This document shows, one piece after another, positions 1 through 9,359 of a stretch of DNA of 51,690 bases (its first letter is position 1; every line of letters begins with the position of its first letter). Position numbers and translations under genes: made by a program. The stretch spans positions 1 through 51,690 of the forward strand of contig NZ_PVWK01000135.1 of the NCBI RefSeq assembly GCF_003003795.1, read 5' to 3'. The notes under the pieces were generated by a model. It was not told the DNA's origin. It worked only from the letters and a program-made list of their open reading frames with translations, and searched no databases. Origin of the DNA: Stenomitos frigidus ULC18. Lineage in GTDB: Bacteria; Cyanobacteriota; Cyanobacteriia; Leptolyngbyales; Leptolyngbyaceae.

Positions 1-35
1 TTTGCTTTAATTGCTCTATGAGGGTCATGGACTGA

Positions 36-64
36 ATGGACTGAATAATAACTACTCAGTCCAT
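36..64. other. Stem-loop near the window start
   Basis: The arms ATGGACTGA (36-44) and TCAGTCCAT (56-64) are perfect inverted repeats around an 11-nt loop, followed by a T/C-rich run. It could be a weak terminator for a gene that ends left of the window or an insertion-sequence end. I see no gene in positions 1-187. Confidence 0.3.
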
Positions 65-187
65 CCTCATTTTCTTATTCTTGTATGAAACCACCCTGCC
101 TGACCAGAGGGAAGGGGGACGTCATGCGAGTGCTGCGGCTGTTCTCTTCTTCTGGCTCAAGACTAACTGCTACGTCTTGCCTAGTAT

Positions 188-446
188 TCACTTGGTAGAC
201 TCAGGCTGCTTCCCTAGCAACCGCCCAAAACCAACCGTTGATTGGTCGTTTGGTGGTGAGGATTGACCGCTCTTGCGCTCGATTAGCCACTTTAGGAACA
301 AAGCAACCGAACCAGAGCCGACAAACAGGGAACTGATTGCTTGCCAATTTGTGGTCGCAAATTTGTTCAGCGAGTAGCCCAGGTTGCTTAGCTTTGCACA
401 ACTACGGTGCTCAATTGCCAGTACGACCAGCGCTTTTTGGACAGCT
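188..446 (-). pseudogene. Unrecognised C-terminal gene fragment fused to an IS110 scrap
   Basis: Reading leftward from about 446, one frame stays open for roughly 85 codons to a TGA at 188-190. It has no start codon of its own and begins where the IS110 similarity stops, one frame away. The translation contains a hydrophobic stretch (SSLFVGSGSVALFLKWL) and does not look like transposase. It may be the tail of a host gene cut by the IS110 element. I do not recognise it. Confidence 0.25.
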
Positions 447-660
447 GCGCGAGGGCTAAGGCCGCGGCGGCTGGGGCTTCTAGACCGCCAGTCGCTTCCA
501 TCACAACCAGCGTTGGTTGCAGTTGCTGTAAGCGTTGCACCAAAGCGGCAATGCCGGCTTCCGTATTGGCGACTTGAAACGCTTCTGCGGTGGGTCGAAT
601 GTGACCATCAAGTTGAGCCTTCGAGACATCAATCCCAACCCAATATGCGGTTTGATTCAT
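388..660 (-). pseudogene. IS110-family transposase, N-terminal fragment
   Basis: The first 70 or so residues carry the IS110 DEDD-transposase start: GIDVSK with the first catalytic Asp near residue 11, and VVMEATGG with the Glu near residue 55. A full-length IS110 transposase has 300-400 residues and a second transposase domain, both missing here. Similarity ends after ALALAQLS, and the remaining residues to the stop at 388 are out-of-frame junk. This is a 5' remnant of an old insertion lying 255 bp beyond the 3' end of the integron integrase. No partner piece was found in the window. Confidence 0.7.
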
Positions 661-915
661 GAGCTTTTTGGAGTAGACAGCATCCTGGTCGGACTCAAAC
701 TTGCACGATACGGAATCAAAGTTCCAGGCGATTGTTCGAGTTCAGTAGCCAAGGTGTGTGGTGACCCAAGCTTCTGCTCGGCTTCTAACAACCCAGTGCC
801 AATCGGTCTACCACACACTCTCAACATACAAGTGCAAGGCAGGCGATCGCCAATTAAAGATAAGAACTGGTAGACATTCACGTTGGGTGGTAGCTCGTTG
901 ATGCCCAATTCATCG

Positions 916-1887
916 TCACCCATCAAGTGGACTACGAACTCCTCGCCCACCCCGGTTTAGGACATGGGTATAAATCATGGTTGTCTTAACGTCCTTGTGC
1001 CCAAGCAACTCTTGAATCGTGCGGATGTCATACCCGTTCTCTAACAAATGAGTGGCAAAGCTGTGCCGGAAGGCGTGACAGCCAATCCGCTTGGTAAGCC
1101 TTACAGCCCTTGCTGCTTGTTTAACCGCTTTTTGTACTCCACTTTCATGCAAATGATGCCGACACATCAGCCCACTGCGTGGATCTTTGGTAAATGAACC
1201 GGATGGAAACACGTATTGCCAGATCCACTCCCGATTGGCATTGGGATATTTACGCTCCAGCGCAAAGGGCAAATTTACGGCTCCAAACCCTCTGCTCAAG
1301 TCCCGTTGGTGTTGTCGTTGGAAACCCACTAGATGATCTCGTAATTCTGCTGCGACACTCGCTGGTAGCAGCGTCACACGACTCTTGCTACCTTTGCCGT
1401 CTCTGACCACAATTTGGTGTTGGGCAAAGTCAACATCCTTGACTCGTAAGCGCAACCCTTCGCTCAAGCGAAGACCACTCCCGTACAGCAGCTTCACCAC
1501 CAATTGATAGACTCCATCACACTGCTGGATCACGGTGATTGCCTCCTGCTTGGTCAACACTGTAGGCACATACTGAGGTCGTTTCGCTCGAACAGCATCA
1601 ATGCCCGTCATTTCAAGATTGAGCATTTTGCACACTTCCCGATAGAGAAACAGCAAGGCGCTGAGAGCTTGATTTTGGGTTGAAGCGGAGACCTGCCCAT
1701 CAACGGCTAGATGGGTGAGAAATGCTTCGATTTCAGCTTTGCCCATCTCCTTTGGATGGCGCTTATTGTGGAACAGGATGTAGCGGCGAATCCATTGTAC
1801 GTAGGTTTCTTCCGTGCGGTAGGCGTAGTGCTTGAGCCGAATCGCATCCCGCACCTGATCCAGCAATTTCTTGGGAGGTGGTTGCAT
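916..1887 (-). CDS. intI: Integron integrase (tyrosine recombinase, IntI type)
   Basis: This 323-residue site-specific recombinase inserts and excises gene cassettes by recombining attI with folded single-stranded attC. The N-terminal SAM-like core-binding domain covers about residues 5-95. The catalytic domain has R140 (GSGLRLSE), H271-x-x-R274 ([10 protein letters not shown]), H297 (LLGHKDV) and nucleophile Y306 (MIYTH). Residues about 208-229 ([20 protein letters not shown]) are the extra IntI patch that separates integron integrases from XerC/D and phage integrases. The length is normal and the frame is intact, so it could be active. The start is the ATG at 1885-1887. It is divergent from the NACHT cassette, with the attI region between them, which is the classic integron arrangement. 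A LexA-like box lies just upstream. Assignment to IntI is firm from the patch and the neighbouring attC. Confidence 0.93.
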
Positions 1888-1917
1888 AGAGATAAGTAGA
1901 TGTACCGTGTATTAAAT

Positions 1918-1931
1918 AGTACATATGCTCA
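1918..1931 (-). promoter_or_regulatory. Possible LexA (SOS) box upstream of intI
   Basis: AGTACATATGCTCA resembles the cyanobacterial/Gram-positive LexA operator RGTACNNNDGTWCB, with one mismatch in the inner core and one at the last position. It sits 31-44 bp upstream of the intI start, where an operator would act. SOS control of integrase is known from other integrons. The match is imperfect, so this is tentative. Confidence 0.3.
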
Positions 1932-1940
1932 TCCGTATAA

Positions 1941-2105
1941 GGGATCTGAAAATATGCGGAAAGATTCTAGCTAATCAGCTTAAACGGCGTATTATGCGGA
2001 AATAATCAGCATAAGTAGTGATTCGGGATCTTAGGCTGAATCGTTCTGCCTATCTACCCATTTTGGGATCTTAGGCGGAAATTTTCAGTCTAATAATAGT
2101 TAGGC
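1941..2105 (+). other. attI: Integron attI region with roughly 40-bp spaced repeats and recombination core GTTAGGC
   Basis: GTTAGGC at 2099-2105 fits the core site GTTRRRY. Cleavage would fall between G2099 and T2100, so the cassette starts TTAGGC. To its left, a T-A-(T/G)-G-C-(G/T)-G-A-A motif recurs at 1953, 1993, 2032 and 2072, about 40 bp apart. The 12-mer GGGATCTTAGGC occurs exactly at 2025 and 2065, and GGGATCT also at 1941. Such direct repeats next to the core are expected for integrase-binding sites in attI. The position, 212 bp upstream of the intI start and before the first cassette, is canonical. The role of each repeat is inferred. Confidence 0.7.
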
Positions 2106-4519
2106 GGCTTGAGTCCTCGGCGGGGACAGTGGTGGAAAATGCTTTGTCGGTATTCAGCATTAAGCTAACCTGAAGATCCCTGAGCCAGTGGAGCAATACC
2201 CCAATGTTCCTCTAAAATATTGTTAAGTGTCTTTAGTGTTTAATGCCATGACTGGGATAGAACCCTTTGTTGATCCTTTAGCAGGTGGTTTGGTTGGGAT
2301 TTTGGTGGACACTGCAAAGAAAGTTGGGGGTGGGTTCGCTCAAGTAGTAGGCGATCGCGCCAAAGCTGCTGCTGCTCTGAGGCAGTACGCTGATAAATAC
2401 GCTAATCGCTATGGGGAAGTCCGTTTTCTGGGAATGAGACAAGGTATCCCCTTGGAAGGGATTTACACCAAAGTTCGCTTTTTAGATGAGTTGAGTATTT
2501 GCAGCTTAACTTCATTAAAAGCTCTAGAACAAAATTACCGAAAGACCCAGAAACAACGTTTTCAAGCCCAGAAAACTGCTGGGTTAGATAGCTCAACGAT
2601 CGTTAATGAAAATCAATTTTTAATGGTGTTGGGCAAACCTGGCTCCGGAAAATCTACGTTTCTACGACGCACAGGACTAGAGGCACTTAAAGGAGAAAAA
2701 GGCAGTCTTAGGCATCGCTGTATTCCTGTACTTTTAGAACTGAAACGGTTTAATACTAATGAAATTGACCTTACCAAAGCGATTGCAGATGAACTATCAA
2801 ATTTTGGATTTCCTGAAACCGAAACATTCACTTTAAAATTACTAGAACAGGGTAAACTGCTGCTTTTAATGGATGGATTAGATGAAGTTCCTATAATACA
2901 TCAAGATGCTGTTATTGGAGCTATCCAGGGCTTTGTTACTCGCTATGATAGTAACCGCTATATAGCATCTTGTCGTATCGCTGCTTACCAAAGTGCCTGG
3001 AATCGTTTTCAAGATATTGAATTAGCAGATTTTGATGACGACCAGATCCAGCAATTTATTTGCAATTGGTTCCAATCTGAAGCGAATCGAGAAGTACAAG
3101 CTGCTGAAAGATTCTGGGAATCTCTGAATGATCCTAATAACGTTGCTGCAAAAGAACTAGCGCATACACCTCTGTTACTTACTCTGCTTTGCAGAATTTA
3201 TAAACATGAACAAAAATTGCCGTCGAGTCAAGCAACTTTATATCGCAAAGCATTAGACCATCTTTTAGAGGATTGGGCAAAGGAAAAAAAGCTTCAGCAA
3301 GATCCTATCTATCAGCGATTCAGCAATGAAGTAGAAAAGGATTTATTGTCTCAGATTGCTTATCAAGGTTCTGTTAATGATCAAGTTTTCTTCACTCAAG
3401 AAGAGCTGATAGAGCAGATCAAAGATTACTTGTCCGATATAGTAGATAAGCCAAAATATTTAAATGGGAAAGCAATTTTAGATGCAATTTCAATTCAACA
3501 AGGTATTCTCATTGAACGTGCTGAGTACATTTTTTCATTCTCTCATCTTGCTTTTCAGGAATATTTGACAGCCCAGTATATTGGTCGAGATTCCAGTTTA
3601 ATCAGAAACTCTTTAGAACAAAATTTAGATAATTTAAGATGGAGAGAGATATTTATTTTAATAGCTGGTTTGCTGCGTTGTGGGGATACGTTTTTAGAGC
3701 TTATGGAGGAAAGATTGCTATCCTATAATTATCTCAAAACACCTAAGCTTAGGGGACTGGCTAAATGGGTAGTTCAAGCAGTAGATGATTCAGAAGAAAA
3801 GTGCAGATCTGCCACAAAGCGGGCTGCAATATATGTGTTCATCAGTATTATCTTCGATGAGCAACGTGATGCTGGCAAGCCACATTCCTACCGAGTAAAT
3901 CATTTACTCAATGCACTCTCACCTAGCTTATTTGGTGAGATATGGGAGCTTGGATTTCCTGTCCCTGACATTAATTTTGTTGCTGAAGATGGATCGGAAA
4001 TAATATTGGATGATCGACCTGTTTATCCTGATCAAATGAATAAATATCTCCCTCTAATTCATGATAAGCCTAGTCTAGAATTTGCATGTGATTTAGTACG
4101 CAAATTTGAAGAAAACAAAATTTTTAGAAATATTGATTGTCAAGGTTTAATTTTTAAACTAGAAGCACTTCAGGATGAAGCTCCTATCGAAATTTCAGCG
4201 GTATATGCAGATGATGAAGGTTATCGATTCTATATAAATCGAATTCGGCAAGTGTGGCTCGAATCCCTTGAATTTCAGGAGGAATGGCTTGATTTACCCT
4301 ATGAAGAGTCTTACGCCTTGGCAAATTATTTATATATCAGCGAACTAATGGTTCGTTGTAAAGAAGCGGCAATACAGATATCTAGGGAAGTTTGGCAGGG
4401 AATTGAAGAGAGAATGCTGGTAATTATGGGAAGTGAAGCCACCTAACAAGTCGATGAAGCGGACGAGCGAGAGATCTTGGGGGGTTGCCGAGGTTATCTG
4501 CCGCCGCTTATCTTGGTCG
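2100..4519 (+). mobile_element. Integron gene cassette carrying a NACHT gene
   Basis: The cassette runs from the first core (cut after G2099) to the attC R' core (cut after G4519), a length of 2420 bp. As a free circle its attC would join G to TTAGGC, giving R' GTTAGGC. That complements R'' ACCTAAC at six of seven positions, one better than the junction present now (GTTAGAC). This is the relationship expected if the cassette was inserted by site-specific recombination. Typical cassettes are well under 1.5 kb, so this one is large. It is the only cassette; the next gene begins (by its 3' end) 31 bp beyond attC. Confidence 0.85.
2227..4446 (+). CDS. NACHT-domain NTPase (bacterial NLR-like, candidate anti-phage protein)
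   Basis: This 739-residue STAND ATPase has an N-terminal helical region (about 1-125) of the kind found before many cyanobacterial NACHT domains. The NACHT core follows, with Walker A GKPGSGKST at 136-144 and the NACHT-type Walker B LLLLMDGLDEV (D216, D219, E220). The conserved winged-helix motif FSHLAFQEYLTA lies near 438-449, and an unassigned C-terminal region of about 230 residues ends the protein. No nuclease, TIR or leucine-rich-repeat domain is visible. Bacterial NACHT proteins are known to give phage resistance; that role is inferred here. The GTG at 2227 or the ATG at 2248 may start translation; neither has a clear Shine-Dalgarno, and family members favour the ATG. The TAA stop (4444-4446) lies inside attC, as in true cassettes. 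The gene is visibly more A+T-rich than its neighbours, consistent with transfer. Confidence 0.9.
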   Translation: MSLVFNAMTGIEPFVDPLAGGLVGILVDTAKKVGGGFAQVVGDRAKAAAALRQYADKYANRYGEVRFLGMRQGIPLEGIYTKVRFLDELSICSLTSLKALEQNYRKTQKQRFQAQKTAGLDSSTIVNENQFLMVLGKPGSGKSTFLRRTGLEALKGEKGSLRHRCIPVLLELKRFNTNEIDLTKAIADELSNFGFPETETFTLKLLEQGKLLLLMDGLDEVPIIHQDAVIGAIQGFVTRYDSNRYIASCRIAAYQSAWNRFQDIELADFDDDQIQQFICNWFQSEANREVQAAERFWESLNDPNNVAAKELAHTPLLLTLLCRIYKHEQKLPSSQATLYRKALDHLLEDWAKEKKLQQDPIYQRFSNEVEKDLLSQIAYQGSVNDQVFFTQEELIEQIKDYLSDIVDKPKYLNGKAILDAISIQQGILIERAEYIFSFSHLAFQEYLTAQYIGRDSSLIRNSLEQNLDNLRWREIFILIAGLLRCGDTFLELMEERLLSYNYLKTPKLRGLAKWVVQAVDDSEEKCRSATKRAAIYVFISIIFDEQRDAGKPHSYRVNHLLNALSPSLFGEIWELGFPVPDINFVAEDGSEIILDDRPVYPDQMNKYLPLIHDKPSLEFACDLVRKFEENKIFRNIDCQGLIFKLEALQDEAPIEISAVYADDEGYRFYINRIRQVWLESLEFQEEWLDLPYEESYALANYLYISELMVRCKEAAIQISREVWQGIEERMLVIMGSEAT

Positions 4520-4525
4520 TTAGAC
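4441..4525 (+). other. attC: attC recombination site (59-base element)
   Basis: This 85-bp imperfect palindrome has all the conserved parts. R'' is ACCTAAC (4441-4447, fits RYYYAAC), followed by a 5-nt spacer and L'' GATGAAGCGG (4453-4462). L' is CCGCTTATC (4504-4512), followed by a 6-nt spacer and R' GTTAGAC (4519-4525, fits GTTRRRY). L'' equals the reverse complement of L' plus one extra G at 4456, the extrahelical base that polarises attC folding and tells the integrase which strand to cut. The NACHT stop codon overlaps R''. Confidence 0.92.
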
Positions 4526-4556
4526 TGCTCAATTTAATCAATGTAGGTTTCACAAA

Positions 4557-7556
4557 TTACCTTGATCCACTTCGTTCCATAGGGCGCTTGGTTCGATCAA
4601 CGGTTGCACGTGAAACAGGGGCAGCAGTGGTCATAATTCGAGTGCGACTTTGAGATTTCCAGTGCTGATACTGTAGGAGCGGGAATGATGCGACCTGTTT
4701 TGCCATTGCCCAGAAGAACACATAGCTCGCTAACAATCTCTCAAACCCAGTAAATCTTGATTCTCGAAGTTCTTCTAGCGTGATTTGGCGATCGAAAGAA
4801 GTGTCAATGTTGGAACTAGAAAGAACGATCGCATCTTGAAAGCTTTGATGTGCGATCGCTGGATCATGTCCTAGAGCAATAATCTCTGCACCTGTACTAA
4901 GGTTTTGAACTCCAATGGCTTGCTTCCCGCTCATCACAATGGCACTTTCACTCTCCTTCTGCATCGGACTCCGCCGCCCATCGGGAATGCCCAGAAAGAT
5001 CAGTGAGCCTCTGACCACTCGATGTCCATACTGGTGCAGCATATGATCTTGTGGATTCCCGCCATGCACATCTAAAGAAGCAATCCCATAACTGAGAGAA
5101 AAGAGCTTACTCACATAACATCTTAGAAGTTGATGAATCCAAGGCGCATCTCCAATAACGACAGAACGTTTCCCTGTTCGTGCTAGGAGCGGTCGATGCT
5201 GAAAATATCGCAATGCTAAACTCCAGAGCCAAGGACCAAAGATGTAAATCAGAATGTCTGCAGCGATGAGTAAAGGCAGTAAAAATCCAGGAATCGACAG
5301 GCTGGCAAAGCCAAAAATGATCCGAAATACAGTTTGAATGAATGGGATGCCTAGTCCAACTGTGAGCGCAATGTAGAGTGAGTGAATTGCCCACACAAGC
5401 GGCGCTTCAATGATATGCTGTGCCCACTTCTTACTACTTTGAAGGAGTTGAGAATAATCTGACGAGCGATTGATTTTGCCTTTCGCAGTTATCCCCACGA
5501 TCGCTTCAGCACGATTGGGGAAATCAATTTTCATTTTTTCTAGCATCAACACATCGGCGGTCGATAATGTCATGCCAAATGCACCTTGATGAGCAGGGAA
5601 TCTCGCTCTTAACTGTTTTGCAACGTGTAGCAGTAGCTCTGTTAAAGTTGCTTGAGCCGCAGCGATCGCAACGGTTGTGGGTTCTGCGGTTCGTCGTCCA
5701 CTGCCATTGATGAAAATTCGTCTCGTAAAACTTGACTCTTGATAGTAGTACTGGGAGATTGCAGTTCCCATCAGACTGCACAGCTCTCCAGTTAGGATAA
5801 AGAATTCGCGAATGTTTCCTTGAAGGTGCAATTCTTCTAGAGCATTCGTTGCTTGCAGGGTTGGGAAGGTTTGTCCAGACTGACTGATTGCAAGCACGAT
5901 CGAGGTCTTGCCCAATCGTAAACTGCCGTCGTACTGCAATCGTTGGAGAAGCTGATTTGAGGAAATGGTTTTAACCGTCAAGGCTGGACATATCAGCGTG
6001 AGATCTTGAGCAAATCGCTCACCGAGCCAAAGACTACTTTCAACTCCTGTAATCAATAAATCGATCGCGGGTGTATCCGTGACCCGCTCTAGTTTGAGGT
6101 TCTTAGCTTTCTCAATGAGTAGTTCAACTAAGTAATCTGCGGTCTGACGATTAAACGAAGTTGGATCATCCCAAGATTGCTCGATCGACTTTAGAATCTT
6201 AGGAATTTCCTGAATGTCACGTTGGACGGGATCTGCTGCATGTTCTTCCGGGGGCAGAATGTAGGAATTGCCTTGCAGCGGAATCCAGCGCTCTTCAAGT
6301 TCTGAGCTTCTCAGTTCTCGGTCTTCGAGCATTGAGTAAACGGTGATGTGATTCACGCCGACCCAGGCAATTTCGCCACCTTTCTGGTCCAGATCTAATC
6401 GATACGATCGCGGAATATGAGACAGTACCGCATCGACCGCAGCAGGTTCTGAAGCATAGACCATATAATCATCTTGAACATTGAAGCCAGTTGCAATCGG
6501 TTGTCCCCAAGCACTGACAACAAGAGTGGCTTCACTCAGAGTTGAAGCTGTGACCAAGCCGAAACTGCCGTGCGCTCTGGATAAAAAGAGTTTTGTGGCT
6601 TGATACAGATTGTTATGAAAGAAAACGTGAATTGCAGTTTTGACAAAGTTAGGAAGCCTTGCAGACCATTGTCCGATTGAATGATGCTGACTGAATGCTT
6701 GAACTAGCTCTTGCTCAAATTGATTCACATGTTTTCTCGATAGTTCAAGCATCGAACTGGCATACGGCATTAGAAGCTTACCCTGATGACTGAGAAAAAC
6801 TTTTTCTGCAATCGCACTCCACTCTTCGATCTCGACTTCAGTGGGAGCCGTATTTGGAGCATCTTTGGAGGGAGTTCTGCCACCACAGGCATCTCGCGTC
6901 GATTCTGCGATCGCAAGCTGATGTGCCAATCTTAAAGAAGCATCCCACATGCCCTGAGTGATGAGCAAATCCATCATGCCAGCAATTTTGGGAGAGTCGC
7001 CCAATGCTGCATTTGGCGTGTGTAAGACTCGTTGTAGCCAAAGTCCTAGCTCTGCATTCTCGATCGTGTTATCAAAGATTGTCCAGCCATCAAAGTCGCC
7101 GTTGTGTGTGATCCGATGATTCACTAGATGTCGACCGCAGATCCATTTTCCCTCTTCGACGCGCCAAACATTTGCAAATCGAGCAGGCATCCACTCGTGC
7201 CAGTGAGTCTCTAAAACAGCCGGTGGGCTACTGGTTGCAAATCGATAGTGCCAGATTCCTAAAACTGCAACATCTGAAGCCTTAGCGCCTTTTCCTGCGG
7301 CTTTGCGCCGAGTCTTTGAGAAAGCAGATTCTAGAGATTGAGTCAGATTTTTTCGCTTTTGATTGACAACTTTTTCGCCAACGAAAATCGCTTGATTTGC
7401 GCGATCACGAGCGAAAATAGCACCGCCGCCTGCTTGCTCTCCTCGAATTTCAGTCTCTCGACCCATTGTTTTGAAAATCTCTACCACTCGTGCGGGTAGA
7501 AGTTCAGCATCATCTTGCGGGAGCCGTTTTCCCAAAAAACCAAAATTTCCACACAT
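4557..7556 (-). CDS. Membrane-embedded GlmS-like protein: class II glutamine amidotransferase + SIS domains + TM helices
   Basis: A 999-residue protein. It starts MCGNFGF, so Cys2 becomes the N-terminal nucleophile of a class II glutaminase. The supporting motifs are present: GIWHYRFAT near residue 100 (GlmS HTRWAT equivalent) and THNGDFDG near 150. A sugar-isomerase (SIS)-like region follows, with AISQSGQTFPT near 555-565. A hydrophobic block of two or three membrane spans lies at about 720-790, and a second SIS-like part at about 795-900. Classical GlmS has about 610 residues, is soluble, and makes glucosamine-6-phosphate from fructose-6-phosphate and glutamine. The membrane insertion and large spacer between glutaminase and SIS parts make simple housekeeping GlmS unlikely. 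It is the last gene of the leftward signalling operon, 6 bp after the three-receiver gene. Substrate unknown; a regulatory or cell-envelope sugar role is inference. Confidence 0.75.
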   Translation of the reverse strand: MCGNFGFLGKRLPQDDAELLPARVVEIFKTMGRETEIRGEQAGGGAIFARDRANQAIFVGEKVVNQKRKNLTQSLESAFSKTRRKAAGKGAKASDVAVLGIWHYRFATSSPPAVLETHWHEWMPARFANVWRVEEGKWICGRHLVNHRITHNGDFDGWTIFDNTIENAELGLWLQRVLHTPNAALGDSPKIAGMMDLLITQGMWDASLRLAHQLAIAESTRDACGGRTPSKDAPNTAPTEVEIEEWSAIAEKVFLSHQGKLLMPYASSMLELSRKHVNQFEQELVQAFSQHHSIGQWSARLPNFVKTAIHVFFHNNLYQATKLFLSRAHGSFGLVTASTLSEATLVVSAWGQPIATGFNVQDDYMVYASEPAAVDAVLSHIPRSYRLDLDQKGGEIAWVGVNHITVYSMLEDRELRSSELEERWIPLQGNSYILPPEEHAADPVQRDIQEIPKILKSIEQSWDDPTSFNRQTADYLVELLIEKAKNLKLERVTDTPAIDLLITGVESSLWLGERFAQDLTLICPALTVKTISSNQLLQRLQYDGSLRLGKTSIVLAISQSGQTFPTLQATNALEELHLQGNIREFFILTGELCSLMGTAISQYYYQESSFTRRIFINGSGRRTAEPTTVAIAAAQATLTELLLHVAKQLRARFPAHQGAFGMTLSTADVLMLEKMKIDFPNRAEAIVGITAKGKINRSSDYSQLLQSSKKWAQHIIEAPLVWAIHSLYIALTVGLGIPFIQTVFRIIFGFASLSIPGFLLPLLIAADILIYIFGPWLWSLALRYFQHRPLLARTGKRSVVIGDAPWIHQLLRCYVSKLFSLSYGIASLDVHGGNPQDHMLHQYGHRVVRGSLIFLGIPDGRRSPMQKESESAIVMSGKQAIGVQNLSTGAEIIALGHDPAIAHQSFQDAIVLSSSNIDTSFDRQITLEELRESRFTGFERLLASYVFFWAMAKQVASFPLLQYQHWKSQSRTRIMTTAAPVSRATVDRTKRPMERSGSR

Positions 7557-7562
7557 AGTTAT

Positions 7563-9359
7563 TTAGCGAGAGATAGAGCTTTTCAAGCAGTCTTCAATTT
7601 TGCTAAGTAGGCGGGGTAACTCAATCGGTTTGGTATCATAGTCATCGCAACCGGATGCGAGCGCTTTTTCACGATCGCCTGTCATCGCATGAGCCGTTAA
7701 AGCAATGATTGGGATGCGGCTCGTTTGTGGATTGGCTTTGAGTCGCTGTGTTGCTTCCCATCCATCTATGACAGGCAAATTAATATCCATCAGAATGACT
7801 TGGGGTTGTTCTGAAAGTGCTTTTGAGACTCCTTCTGCTCCATCACTTGCGAGTACAACTTCATAGCCGTGACGCAGTAACCGACGACTGAGCATATCGG
7901 AGTTTAGTTCATTGTCTTCAACTAGTAGAATTTTCAAGGGTAAGTTCGGGGATTGTACTCCCGGAAACTCAGGCTGGAGATCATCGGTTTGTACAACCTC
8001 TGCAACTTGATGCGACGACGATCGCTTCACTTGCTCTAGTTCAAACTGCAATGCTTCGACTTGCTGCTTGAGTTCAGCTTCGAGTTGCTTTTGTTCTCTA
8101 AACTCTTCGACAACGCCTTGATAATGCTCGACTTGCTCGCGTAACTGAACTGCTTGTAAACAAGTTGCTACTTTTGTACGCAGCAGCGTAGATGGGAAAG
8201 GTTGGATAAGGTAATCTGTTGCTCCGAGTGCAATTCCTTGTAAAACTTGCGGCATCTGATCAGAGGCTGCAATAAGCAAAATAGGAACGTCTTTCAATTT
8301 CTGGTCTGATAATAGTTCTGTGTGATTCACCTCTAACAAAATTAAATCAAAAGTAGCATCAGGAAGAATCTCTAAAGCTTGCTGCTTGGTTGTCGCCATC
8401 TTGACCTGATAGCCCTGGCGTTCGAGTTGTCTAGCGATTGCAGTATTCGCAGCAATGATGAGAATATGATTGCTTTCACTCAGAGAGAAGTCAGTTCTTT
8501 GTGTCGGTTGCCAAGCTAAAAACTTCGACTCACTTGATTCGCTAGTTTGAGTGTGACGAGCTAAAACGCTATCGAGATTGTTCACCAGACTTAATAACTT
8601 CTGTGCTGAGTTGTGAAGTTGTTCTAGATCTGAGACGAAATCATGAGGGGCTTCTTCTAGTAAAAGTTCACAGTAACCGATAATGGTGCTGAGCGGGGTT
8701 AGAAGTTCTCGTCGGAGTGCTGGAGCAAAAAGATCGATCGTCCAATCTTGCTGTTGTACTTCGAGTAAGACTGGATTCAAAATACCTTGCACCAATTTGA
8801 GCAATTGCAAGGCTGAAACATAAATCTTTTGGAGATCATTCGAGAGCGATGAATCTTCATCGCTCGCATCTAGCAACATATCGCTATAGCTGATCATGCT
8901 GTAGATTGGCAGTTCAAGCTCTTGGCGAAGCGATGTCCATGAAAGTGATGGTTGAGTGTGATTCAGAGTCACTGGCTCTGGAGGCTTTGGTACGACTGGT
9001 TTGAGCAGCGAATCCATTTTCTCAACTAATCGTGCGAAATCTACAGGTTTCGTATCATACTCATCGCAACCTGCCGCGAGAGCTTTTTCACGTTCACCGA
9101 CGATCGCATCTGCCGTCAAAGCAATGACTGGAATCTGCTGAGTTTGTGGATTGGCTTTAATCTGTCGAGTTGCTTCCCATCCATCTAAGATTGGCAAATG
9201 CAAATCCATCAGAACGAGATCAGGTTGATCTGATTGAGTCTTCGTCACCCCTTCTTCACCATTGACTGCGATAATCACCTGATATCCTTTTCGTTCTAAA
9301 CGACGACGGAGCATATCACGATTGATTTCGTTATCTTCAACTAAAAGGATCGTGGTCAT
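7563..9359 (-). CDS. Three-receiver response regulator with two pseudo-DHp segments
   Basis: A 598-residue protein. REC1 (about 1-120) has an intact acidic pocket (VEDNEINRD) and phosphoacceptor Asp in LVLMDLHLP. Two segments follow that look like histidine-kinase dimerisation helices (about 140-190 and 208-265): LRQELELPI and LRRELLTPLSTIIGY. The phosphoacceptor His of the HELRTP motif is Gln or Arg in these, and no ATPase domain follows. REC2 (about 290-400) is degenerate, with Glu replacing the phosphorylatable Asp (LILLEVN). A coiled coil spans about 405-455. REC3 (about 475-595) is intact (VEDNELN, VILMDINLP). REC1 and REC3 are so alike (both WEATxxxKANPQT, DYDTKP) that duplication within the gene is likely. 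It has no DNA-binding output, so it probably works by protein contact. It lies 18 bp after the REC-MinD gene in one operon. Confidence 0.85.
   Translation of the reverse strand: MTTILLVEDNEINRDMLRRRLERKGYQVIIAVNGEEGVTKTQSDQPDLVLMDLHLPILDGWEATRQIKANPQTQQIPVIALTADAIVGEREKALAAGCDEYDTKPVDFARLVEKMDSLLKPVVPKPPEPVTLNHTQPSLSWTSLRQELELPIYSMISYSDMLLDASDEDSSLSNDLQKIYVSALQLLKLVQGILNPVLLEVQQQDWTIDLFAPALRRELLTPLSTIIGYCELLLEEAPHDFVSDLEQLHNSAQKLLSLVNNLDSVLARHTQTSESSESKFLAWQPTQRTDFSLSESNHILIIAANTAIARQLERQGYQVKMATTKQQALEILPDATFDLILLEVNHTELLSDQKLKDVPILLIAASDQMPQVLQGIALGATDYLIQPFPSTLLRTKVATCLQAVQLREQVEHYQGVVEEFREQKQLEAELKQQVEALQFELEQVKRSSSHQVAEVVQTDDLQPEFPGVQSPNLPLKILLVEDNELNSDMLSRRLLRHGYEVVLASDGAEGVSKALSEQPQVILMDINLPVIDGWEATQRLKANPQTSRIPIIALTAHAMTGDREKALASGCDDYDTKPIELPRLLSKIEDCLKSSISR

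Follow-up and report, generated by a model that had tools for sequence, protein, structure and literature searches.

Bacterial NACHT proteins (bNACHT) can act against phages. Darracq (2025) and Getz (2025) reportedly described the sedentary chromosomal integrons of Vibrio cholerae and V. parahaemolyticus, respectively, as anti-phage libraries, and Kieffer (2025) is said to have described mobile integrons with phage-resistance cassettes. According to the accessible text of PMC12409362, the V. cholerae integron is one large array whose cassettes typically contain one open reading frame (ORF), and at least 16 of its 179 cassettes as well as 9 of 57 tested cassettes of V. parahaemolyticus are anti-phage. 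Anti-phage cassettes in Vibrio chromosomal and mobile integrons also emerge from the accessible parts of a wider set of papers (PMC12409362, PMC12444791, PMC13064858, PMC2426708, PMC8352920, PMC3108266, PMC3710099), so that the integron as a defence library is already published for these two settings. As far as the accessible parts of PMC2426708 and PMC8352920 go, Cyanobacteria are known to have intI genes, and an attC model specific to this phylum has appeared. Here, we analyzed a stretch of 51,690 nucleotides (the window) from the cyanobacterium Stenomitos frigidus ULC18, which carries an integron with a single large cassette encoding a NACHT ATPase. The genome comprises 7.0 Mb, and the window corresponds to its contig C33; other C labels denote contigs of the same genome and G labels other genomes. 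We consider it likely that a complete chromosomal integron captured an A+T-rich NACHT gene via IntI, and that its lineage multiplied in this genome, captured varied cassettes, several of them probably anti-phage, and mostly lost the integrase.

The integron of the window is confirmed to be complete, with integrase, attI boundary, attC and cassette limits all present. A sequence-only reading of the window had proposed an intact integrase with the integron-specific patch, a divergent attI-type core, a 2.4-kb cassette with a single NACHT gene and an attC whose R'' box holds the stop codon of that gene, and all of these assignments held. The intact intI gene (916–1887, minus strand) codes for an integron integrase of 323 amino acids, which matches TIGR02249 with 459.5 bits (cut-off 265) and aligns over residues 9–322 with the solved structure of IntI4 (2a3v, E 3.7e-92). 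In this alignment, the protein keeps the integron-specific stretch ([15 protein letters not shown]...RAVRL) as well as, towards its C-terminus, the active-site region R...H-R...H...Y, roles which we take to apply to these residues; it is a tyrosine recombinase of the IntI family equipped with the integron-specific patch.

Between intI and the cassette lies an attI region of 218 bp (1888–2105, plus strand), as delimited by the ends of BLAST matches in the genome and by copies found with nhmmer. Within it lie four repeat units, each about 23 nt long and spaced about 40 nt apart, all on the plus strand, namely units 1 (1952–1974) and 2 (1992–2014) of direct-repeat family D1, unit 3 (2031–2052) within family D2 (2022–2052) and unit 4 (2071–2093), which belongs to both families and adjoins the core. 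This core, GTTAGGC (2099–2105, plus strand), follows the consensus GTTRRRY beside the divergent intI gene and is presumably cut after its first base (G|TTAGGC). Five of seven non-self matches to positions 1888–2226 in the genome stop at 2102–2105, the others at 2109 and 2125. Thus, the copies share attI as far as the crossover point and differ in the sequence beyond, which is the pattern predicted by cassette capture, and the match ends at 2102–2105 locate the boundary between attI and cassette independently. Palindromes were also counted in 26 attI-side regions and rarely exceeded the shuffled controls, clearly so only in L129 and L038; therefore, we claim no palindromic IntI sites at attI, and only the repeat units stand.

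The distal end of the cassette is formed by an attC site of 85 bp (4441–4525, plus strand), in which the R''/L''/L'/R' boxes pair and one extrahelical G is left in L''. Its R'' box ACCTAAC contains the TAA stop codon of the NACHT gene (4444–4446), and its R' box reads GTTAGAC. Two covariance models were built, R1 from this site together with seven attCs of the array on contig C6, and R2 from seven attCs of another integron only. The site scored 70.2 bits with R1, which had it in its training set, and 39.4 bits (E 1.1e-7) with the independent R2, as the check proposed along with the sequence-only reading had anticipated. In an alignment of eight attC sites, three of five covariation measures exceeded the values of every one of 500 shuffles. 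A strict rule (RYYYAAC/GTTRRRY plus stem) with a score of at least 9 gave 4441–4525 as the sole place in the window and none in three shuffles, and at a score of 8 one extra place in the window and 0, 0 and 4 in the shuffles. The same rule missed all 15 R1 attCs of the loci L037–L056 and gave three places unconfirmed by R1; R' boxes with the sequence GTTATGC or GTTCTAC, of which there are many, explain this in part. It was replaced by a relaxed rule combined with the covariance model. An Rfam search of positions 1–9000 returned no attC, the sole match being a snoRNA (E 0.64). In two relatives of 1.7 and 3.0 Mb, no attC reached E 0.001, a result in favour of the specificity of the model.

The cassette bounded by the attI core and the R' box spans 2,420 bp (2100–4519, plus strand) and holds a single gene (2227–4446, plus strand) for a NACHT (STAND/NLR-like) ATPase of 739 amino acids from GTG 2227 or 732 from ATG 2248, the latter being the likelier start judging by alignment with a relative (L016). 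Pfam places the NACHT domain at residues 132–284 (PF05729, 53 bits; cut-off 26.7) and NACHT C-terminal helical domain 2 (NCH2) at 662–732 (42.5 bits), and finds no match in the N-terminal part. The domain contains Walker A and B motifs, and Walker A (GKPGSGKST) and the DGLDE box are largely conserved in two aligned relatives. The protein shares its NACHT STAND ATPase core with bNACHT/EruA, but differs by its NCH2 C-terminus and by scoring far below the EruA equivalog cut-off (NF058535, 45.9 bits vs. 1000), so that identity with EruA was rejected. Among the PADLOC models, it matches PDC-S60 weakly (44.7 bits); a sequence search of the PDB gave no relative at E 0.01, and a scan of viral contigs gave no NACHT relative. 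The closest relatives we found are 50–52% identical and stand at other loci. Two relatives from the scan of genome contigs, both from loci of cyanobacterial metagenome-assembled genomes (MAGs), share 43% and 50% identity in their best segments.

With a limit of E 0.001, the genome yielded at least 40 attC matches, and with a limit of E 1 at least 43, which are lower bounds from scoring 150 of about 1,200 first-look candidates; these attCs measure 80–98 nt. In the examined loci, nhmmer found 12 attI-like copies, eight of which formed the training set of the model and four were new. A full intI gene stands beside the copies of the window and of C6, a truncated one at C155 and a fragment at C78, and an intI family search listed none for the contigs that carry the remaining eight copies. 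C100 retains only the first intI codons, C137 has a C-terminal intI piece without attI, and contig C87 breaks off about 76 bp from its attI, so that an intI gene may lie past the break. In the tree, the integrases of C33, C6 and C155 group together (support 0.988), and the short piece of C137 groups with integrons of genomes from the same family (support 0.907); we read this grouping as one integron lineage multiplied in this genome.

Five of the 12 attI-like copies, on different contigs, hold a single cassette. C6 carries seven ordinary cassettes of 0.6–1.0 kb, coding for four GNATs, a hydrolase, a hexapeptide protein and one unknown product, and three attI copies have no attC (C100 and C22 near contig ends, and C139) and were left out of the cassette counts. 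If all attCs were caught, 16 of the 30 bounded cassettes of the genome exceed 1.5 kb. The cassette of the window, which the sequence-only reading had called giant, is therefore large but not exceptional. We also observed an attC cluster on contig C50 (L067/L068) in which no integrase was detected and whose cassettes of up to 4.2 kb contain SDR, NmrA and F420-oxidoreductase-like genes. On contig C57 (L069 13566–14315), the first cassette behind attI codes for a TPR protein that also resembles rifampin ADP-ribosyltransferase (Arr-ms). A Tn3 transposon as the vehicle for spreading the copies found no support, with the sequence at the contig break of this transposon present at 4 of 21 known contig ends vs. 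2 of 40 sampled starts (p 0.17); the 21 ends came from examined, mostly integron-bearing contigs, and 4 of the 40 sampled starts read N.

Several sister copies carry recognised defence genes. In C61a, a single cassette of 2.29 kb between attI and attC consists of a TIR gene (PF10137 63.4 bits; PADLOC PDC-S35 34.2 bits) and a ThsA macro gene (ThsA_Macro 94 bits; PADLOC ThsA1 9.2e-44), forming a Thoeris-like operon. The single cassette of C87 (3.65 kb between attI and attC) contains Lamassu genes with PADLOC matches to LmuA (6e-122) and LmuC (4.9e-53), and its LmuB gene is split, being matched by two overlapping ORFs (profile positions 2–208 and 204–609 of 610). Within both operons, the genes overlap or stand 68 nt apart, and R1 detected no attC between them. 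On C76, a second, distant NACHT gene (669 amino acids) stands between two attCs. The contig of C87 (L044 6965–14904) further codes for a MobA/MobL relaxase, a ParA-like ATPase, a DUF1016 nuclease and, outside the cassette, beside it and on the opposite strand, a second ThsA macro protein; because of the relaxase, the ParA-like ATPase and the extra ThsA, it looks like a plasmid.

Altogether, recognised defence genes occur in 4 of the 30 bounded cassettes, in three of nine first cassettes behind attI and in three of five single-attC integrons. Tested after the data had been seen, defence genes were associated with single-attC integrons (3/5 vs. 1/25 other bounded cassettes, p 0.009) and, less clearly, with first cassettes (3/9 vs. 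1/21, p 0.07). PADLOC covered 73 and Pfam 43 of the 76 cassette ORFs; 62 ORFs were scanned with PADLOC as one alignment in which the matching member is unnamed (e.g., an exonuclease 'Effector' match of 3.7e-40), and the defence count may therefore be too low. As a separate observation, contig C61 (L042 7919–15592; L043 568–8393) carries a nonribosomal peptide synthetase (NRPS) gene, a gene resembling those of polyketide synthases (PKS) and an MMPL transporter gene between two outward-facing integrons without intI. The NRPS gene has Condensation, AMP-binding and reductase domains (Pfam) and the PKS-like gene was judged by eye; the flanking integrons are C61a with the Thoeris-like operon and C61b with HNH/T5orf172 genes.

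Matches to intI with E values of 1e-80 or better occur in 23 of 386 genomes, including the one studied here, and attC sites are present at 11 of 24 intI loci of other genomes; attCs were found in 13 of 15 genomes searched, including all ten of the same family. In G357, which belongs to another cyanobacterial family (L140 1313–5386), the first cassette of 4.5 kb including attI codes for a DUF4011-helicase-MTES_1575 nuclease of 1,357 amino acids. This is a candidate defence gene with PADLOC matches (PDC-S37 1397 bits; Hhe 4.3e-160), and the intI gene of G357 has an internal stop. The array of G185 comprises 15 ordinary cassettes of 0.6–1.4 kb. In family f19 (L131, L133, L134, L135, L136, L138), we observed intI homologues about 56–59% identical to that of the window, and R1 gave no attC on the stretches examined of their loci; these may be integrases that have no integron or that act on attCs of another type. 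The interpretation given in the sequence-only reading is partly supported, and its suggestion that the integron serves as a defence-capture platform gains weight from the Thoeris-like, Lamassu and second NACHT cassettes in sister copies together with the helicase-nuclease cassette of G357. The integron is no isolated case, being one of 12 attI-like copies found, and the cargo of most cassettes is ordinary.

Like the sedentary integrons of Vibrio, the copies described here combine an IntI-attI platform with attC cassettes of which a share is, here probably, anti-phage. Judged by the accessible accounts, they differ from the V. cholerae integron by having 12 attI-like copies on different contigs, five of them with a single cassette and two of these with a multi-gene defence operon. 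With mobile integrons carrying phage-resistance cassettes they share, on the same basis, the small number of cassettes per integron and the defence cargo, and they differ by residing on cyanobacterial contigs (one plasmid-like), by an IntI/attI lineage of their own and by large cassettes. Defence cargo, multi-copy attI and operon cassettes are unmentioned in the accessible parts of the descriptions of cyanobacterial integrons (PMC2426708, PMC8352920). A literature search of titles and abstract openings, with most subscription papers outside its coverage, found no report of defence cassettes in cyanobacterial integrons. As far as these searches show, the cyanobacterial setting, the operon-size cassettes and the scattered, mostly integrase-less copies look new.

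In the proposed course of events, recombination of attI with attC catalysed by IntI would have taken in the one large NACHT cassette, and the integron lineage would have multiplied within the cyanobacterial genome. The various copies would then have acquired cassettes of their own, among them several likely anti-phage systems, and the integrase would later have disappeared from most copies. As a STAND ATPase, the NACHT protein may assemble on sensing a phage product and then kill the cell or shut it down, and its gene may be transcribed from a promoter on the intI/attI side or inside the cassette, neither of which was located. The captures themselves, the defence against phages and present mobility are what we infer from the anatomy and cargo of these integrons. 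The sister copies with likely anti-phage operons suggest that integron platforms can collect whole defence systems. A bolder version, in which platforms scattered over chromosome and plasmids would each take in one large, often operon-size defence system and then lose the integrase (one platform, one immune system), is put forward tentatively, as less likely than not.

Several results weigh against the capture of defence genes as proposed. When the single strand of the attC site was folded alone, it was no more stable than its shuffles (z −0.85 and −0.76), so that the case for attC rests on boxes, model and layout, and the remaining two of the five covariation measures were reached by 106 and 52 of 500 shuffles. 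No sigma-70-like promoter was found in a search of positions 1860–2300, and the AlphaFold model of the NACHT protein is unusable (mean predicted local distance difference test score, pLDDT, 36.7). No match to the ThsB models of PADLOC was obtained for the TIR gene of C61a. Defence cargo is a minority of the cassettes and most cargo is ordinary, the share of 4/30 not being above that of at least 16/179 given for V. cholerae in the accessible part of PMC12409362. The A+T-rich cargo seen by the sequence-only reading is real (39.6% G+C in the cassette vs. 47.5% in the window), and the defence genes of the four defence cassettes have 38.6–42.3% G+C vs. 46.7–51.4% in the measured flanks, a difference that speaks for capture. 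As a sign of import, A+T-richness alone is weak evidence: seven NACHT matches of the same genome outside cassettes have 47.3–54.8% G+C except for one with 36.0%, which means that low G+C content is no proof of capture.

The relatives of the NACHT gene add to these points. Of the 24 NACHT-like matches in the genome, some of which are parts of the same gene, only those on C33 and C76 have an attC nearby; a match on C73 shares its contig with an attC about 39 kb away, and the cassette NACHT of C76 is only a distant relative of that of the window. We scanned 31 relative loci for attC, comprising 18 from other genomes, two cyanobacterial MAG loci and 11 of the 24 own-genome matches, and compared another 12 own-genome matches with the genome-wide attC list. 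No attC was found within about 1.5 kb of the 31 loci, nor at four same-genus loci. Judging by these loci, this NACHT subfamily usually resides outside integrons, and its capture was seen once.

The relatives lacking attC would also be expected if intI, an attI-like repeat and an attC-like stem had become adjacent by chance or by insertion sequence (IS) activity around an ordinary chromosomal NACHT gene, and the left neighbour of intI is indeed an N-terminal remnant of an IS110-family transposase (388–660, minus strand; PF01548 29.2 bits with a cut-off of 29; NF033542 45.7 bits, below the cut-off of 140). The match to the independent attC model, the end of attI homology inside the core in five of seven matches, the contrast in G+C content and the recurrence of the attI-cassette-attC layout at C61 and C87 largely refute this explanation, which we regard as extremely improbable. 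A fossil integron, in which the capture is old, IntI or attC has become inactive and no mobilisation occurs any longer, is a possibility we hold to be unlikely but worth keeping in mind. It would account for the presence of only two full intI genes (plus two truncated or fragmentary ones and eight without detection in the family search) beside 12 attI-like copies, for the unremarkable attC fold and for the single cassette, but is opposed by the intact intI of the window, by the presence of the attI core and the attC boxes, and by the seven cassettes with well-formed attCs on C6.

The anatomy may also be right and the NACHT gene may nevertheless serve another role, such as programmed cell death, stress or developmental signalling, its location in a cassette being incidental. 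The TIR/ThsA and Lamassu families have an established defence role, and their presence in sister integrons speaks against this explanation, which we judge to be somewhat less probable still than a fossil integron. It would agree with the large number of NACHT-like matches in the genome of which only two are near attC, with most cassettes not being recognised defence genes and with the conflict and cell-death systems described in multicellular prokaryotes, according to the accessible parts of PMC7159879 and PMC8195603. We retain the capture of a probable defence gene by a multiplied integron lineage as the preferred explanation.

The outer edge of the integron is marked by the right-flank gene (4557–7556, minus strand; 999 amino acids), for which a 73% identical gene exists in the same-genus genome G388. 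DNA homology to G388 begins at position 4596, 71 bp outside attC, and the G388 locus has no attC within 1.5 kb of that gene. Close relatives of the NACHT gene at this same locus without intI, which would have spoken against capture, were not encountered, the best relatives being those at other loci mentioned above. Between intI and attI, a weak candidate for a cyanobacterial LexA-like box (1918–1930, strand unspecified) fits a consensus for such boxes and could place this integrase under SOS control. By the same consensus, similar sequences were found in 4 of 27 regions upstream of intI (one over-long), namely those of the window, C6, G060 and G185, vs. 1.8% in single-base shuffles.

Bacterial relatives of NLRs are patchily distributed, and their spread is usually ascribed to defence islands, phages and plasmids. 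If the capture proposed here is true, recombination by integrons would provide a further route for it, and integrons would be able to take up and transfer NLR-like sensors and immune systems of several genes, beyond small single genes and outside Vibrio and clinical mobile integrons. With its copies, some with and some without integrase, the genome represents a natural set for studying how defence cassettes are captured, expressed and fixed.

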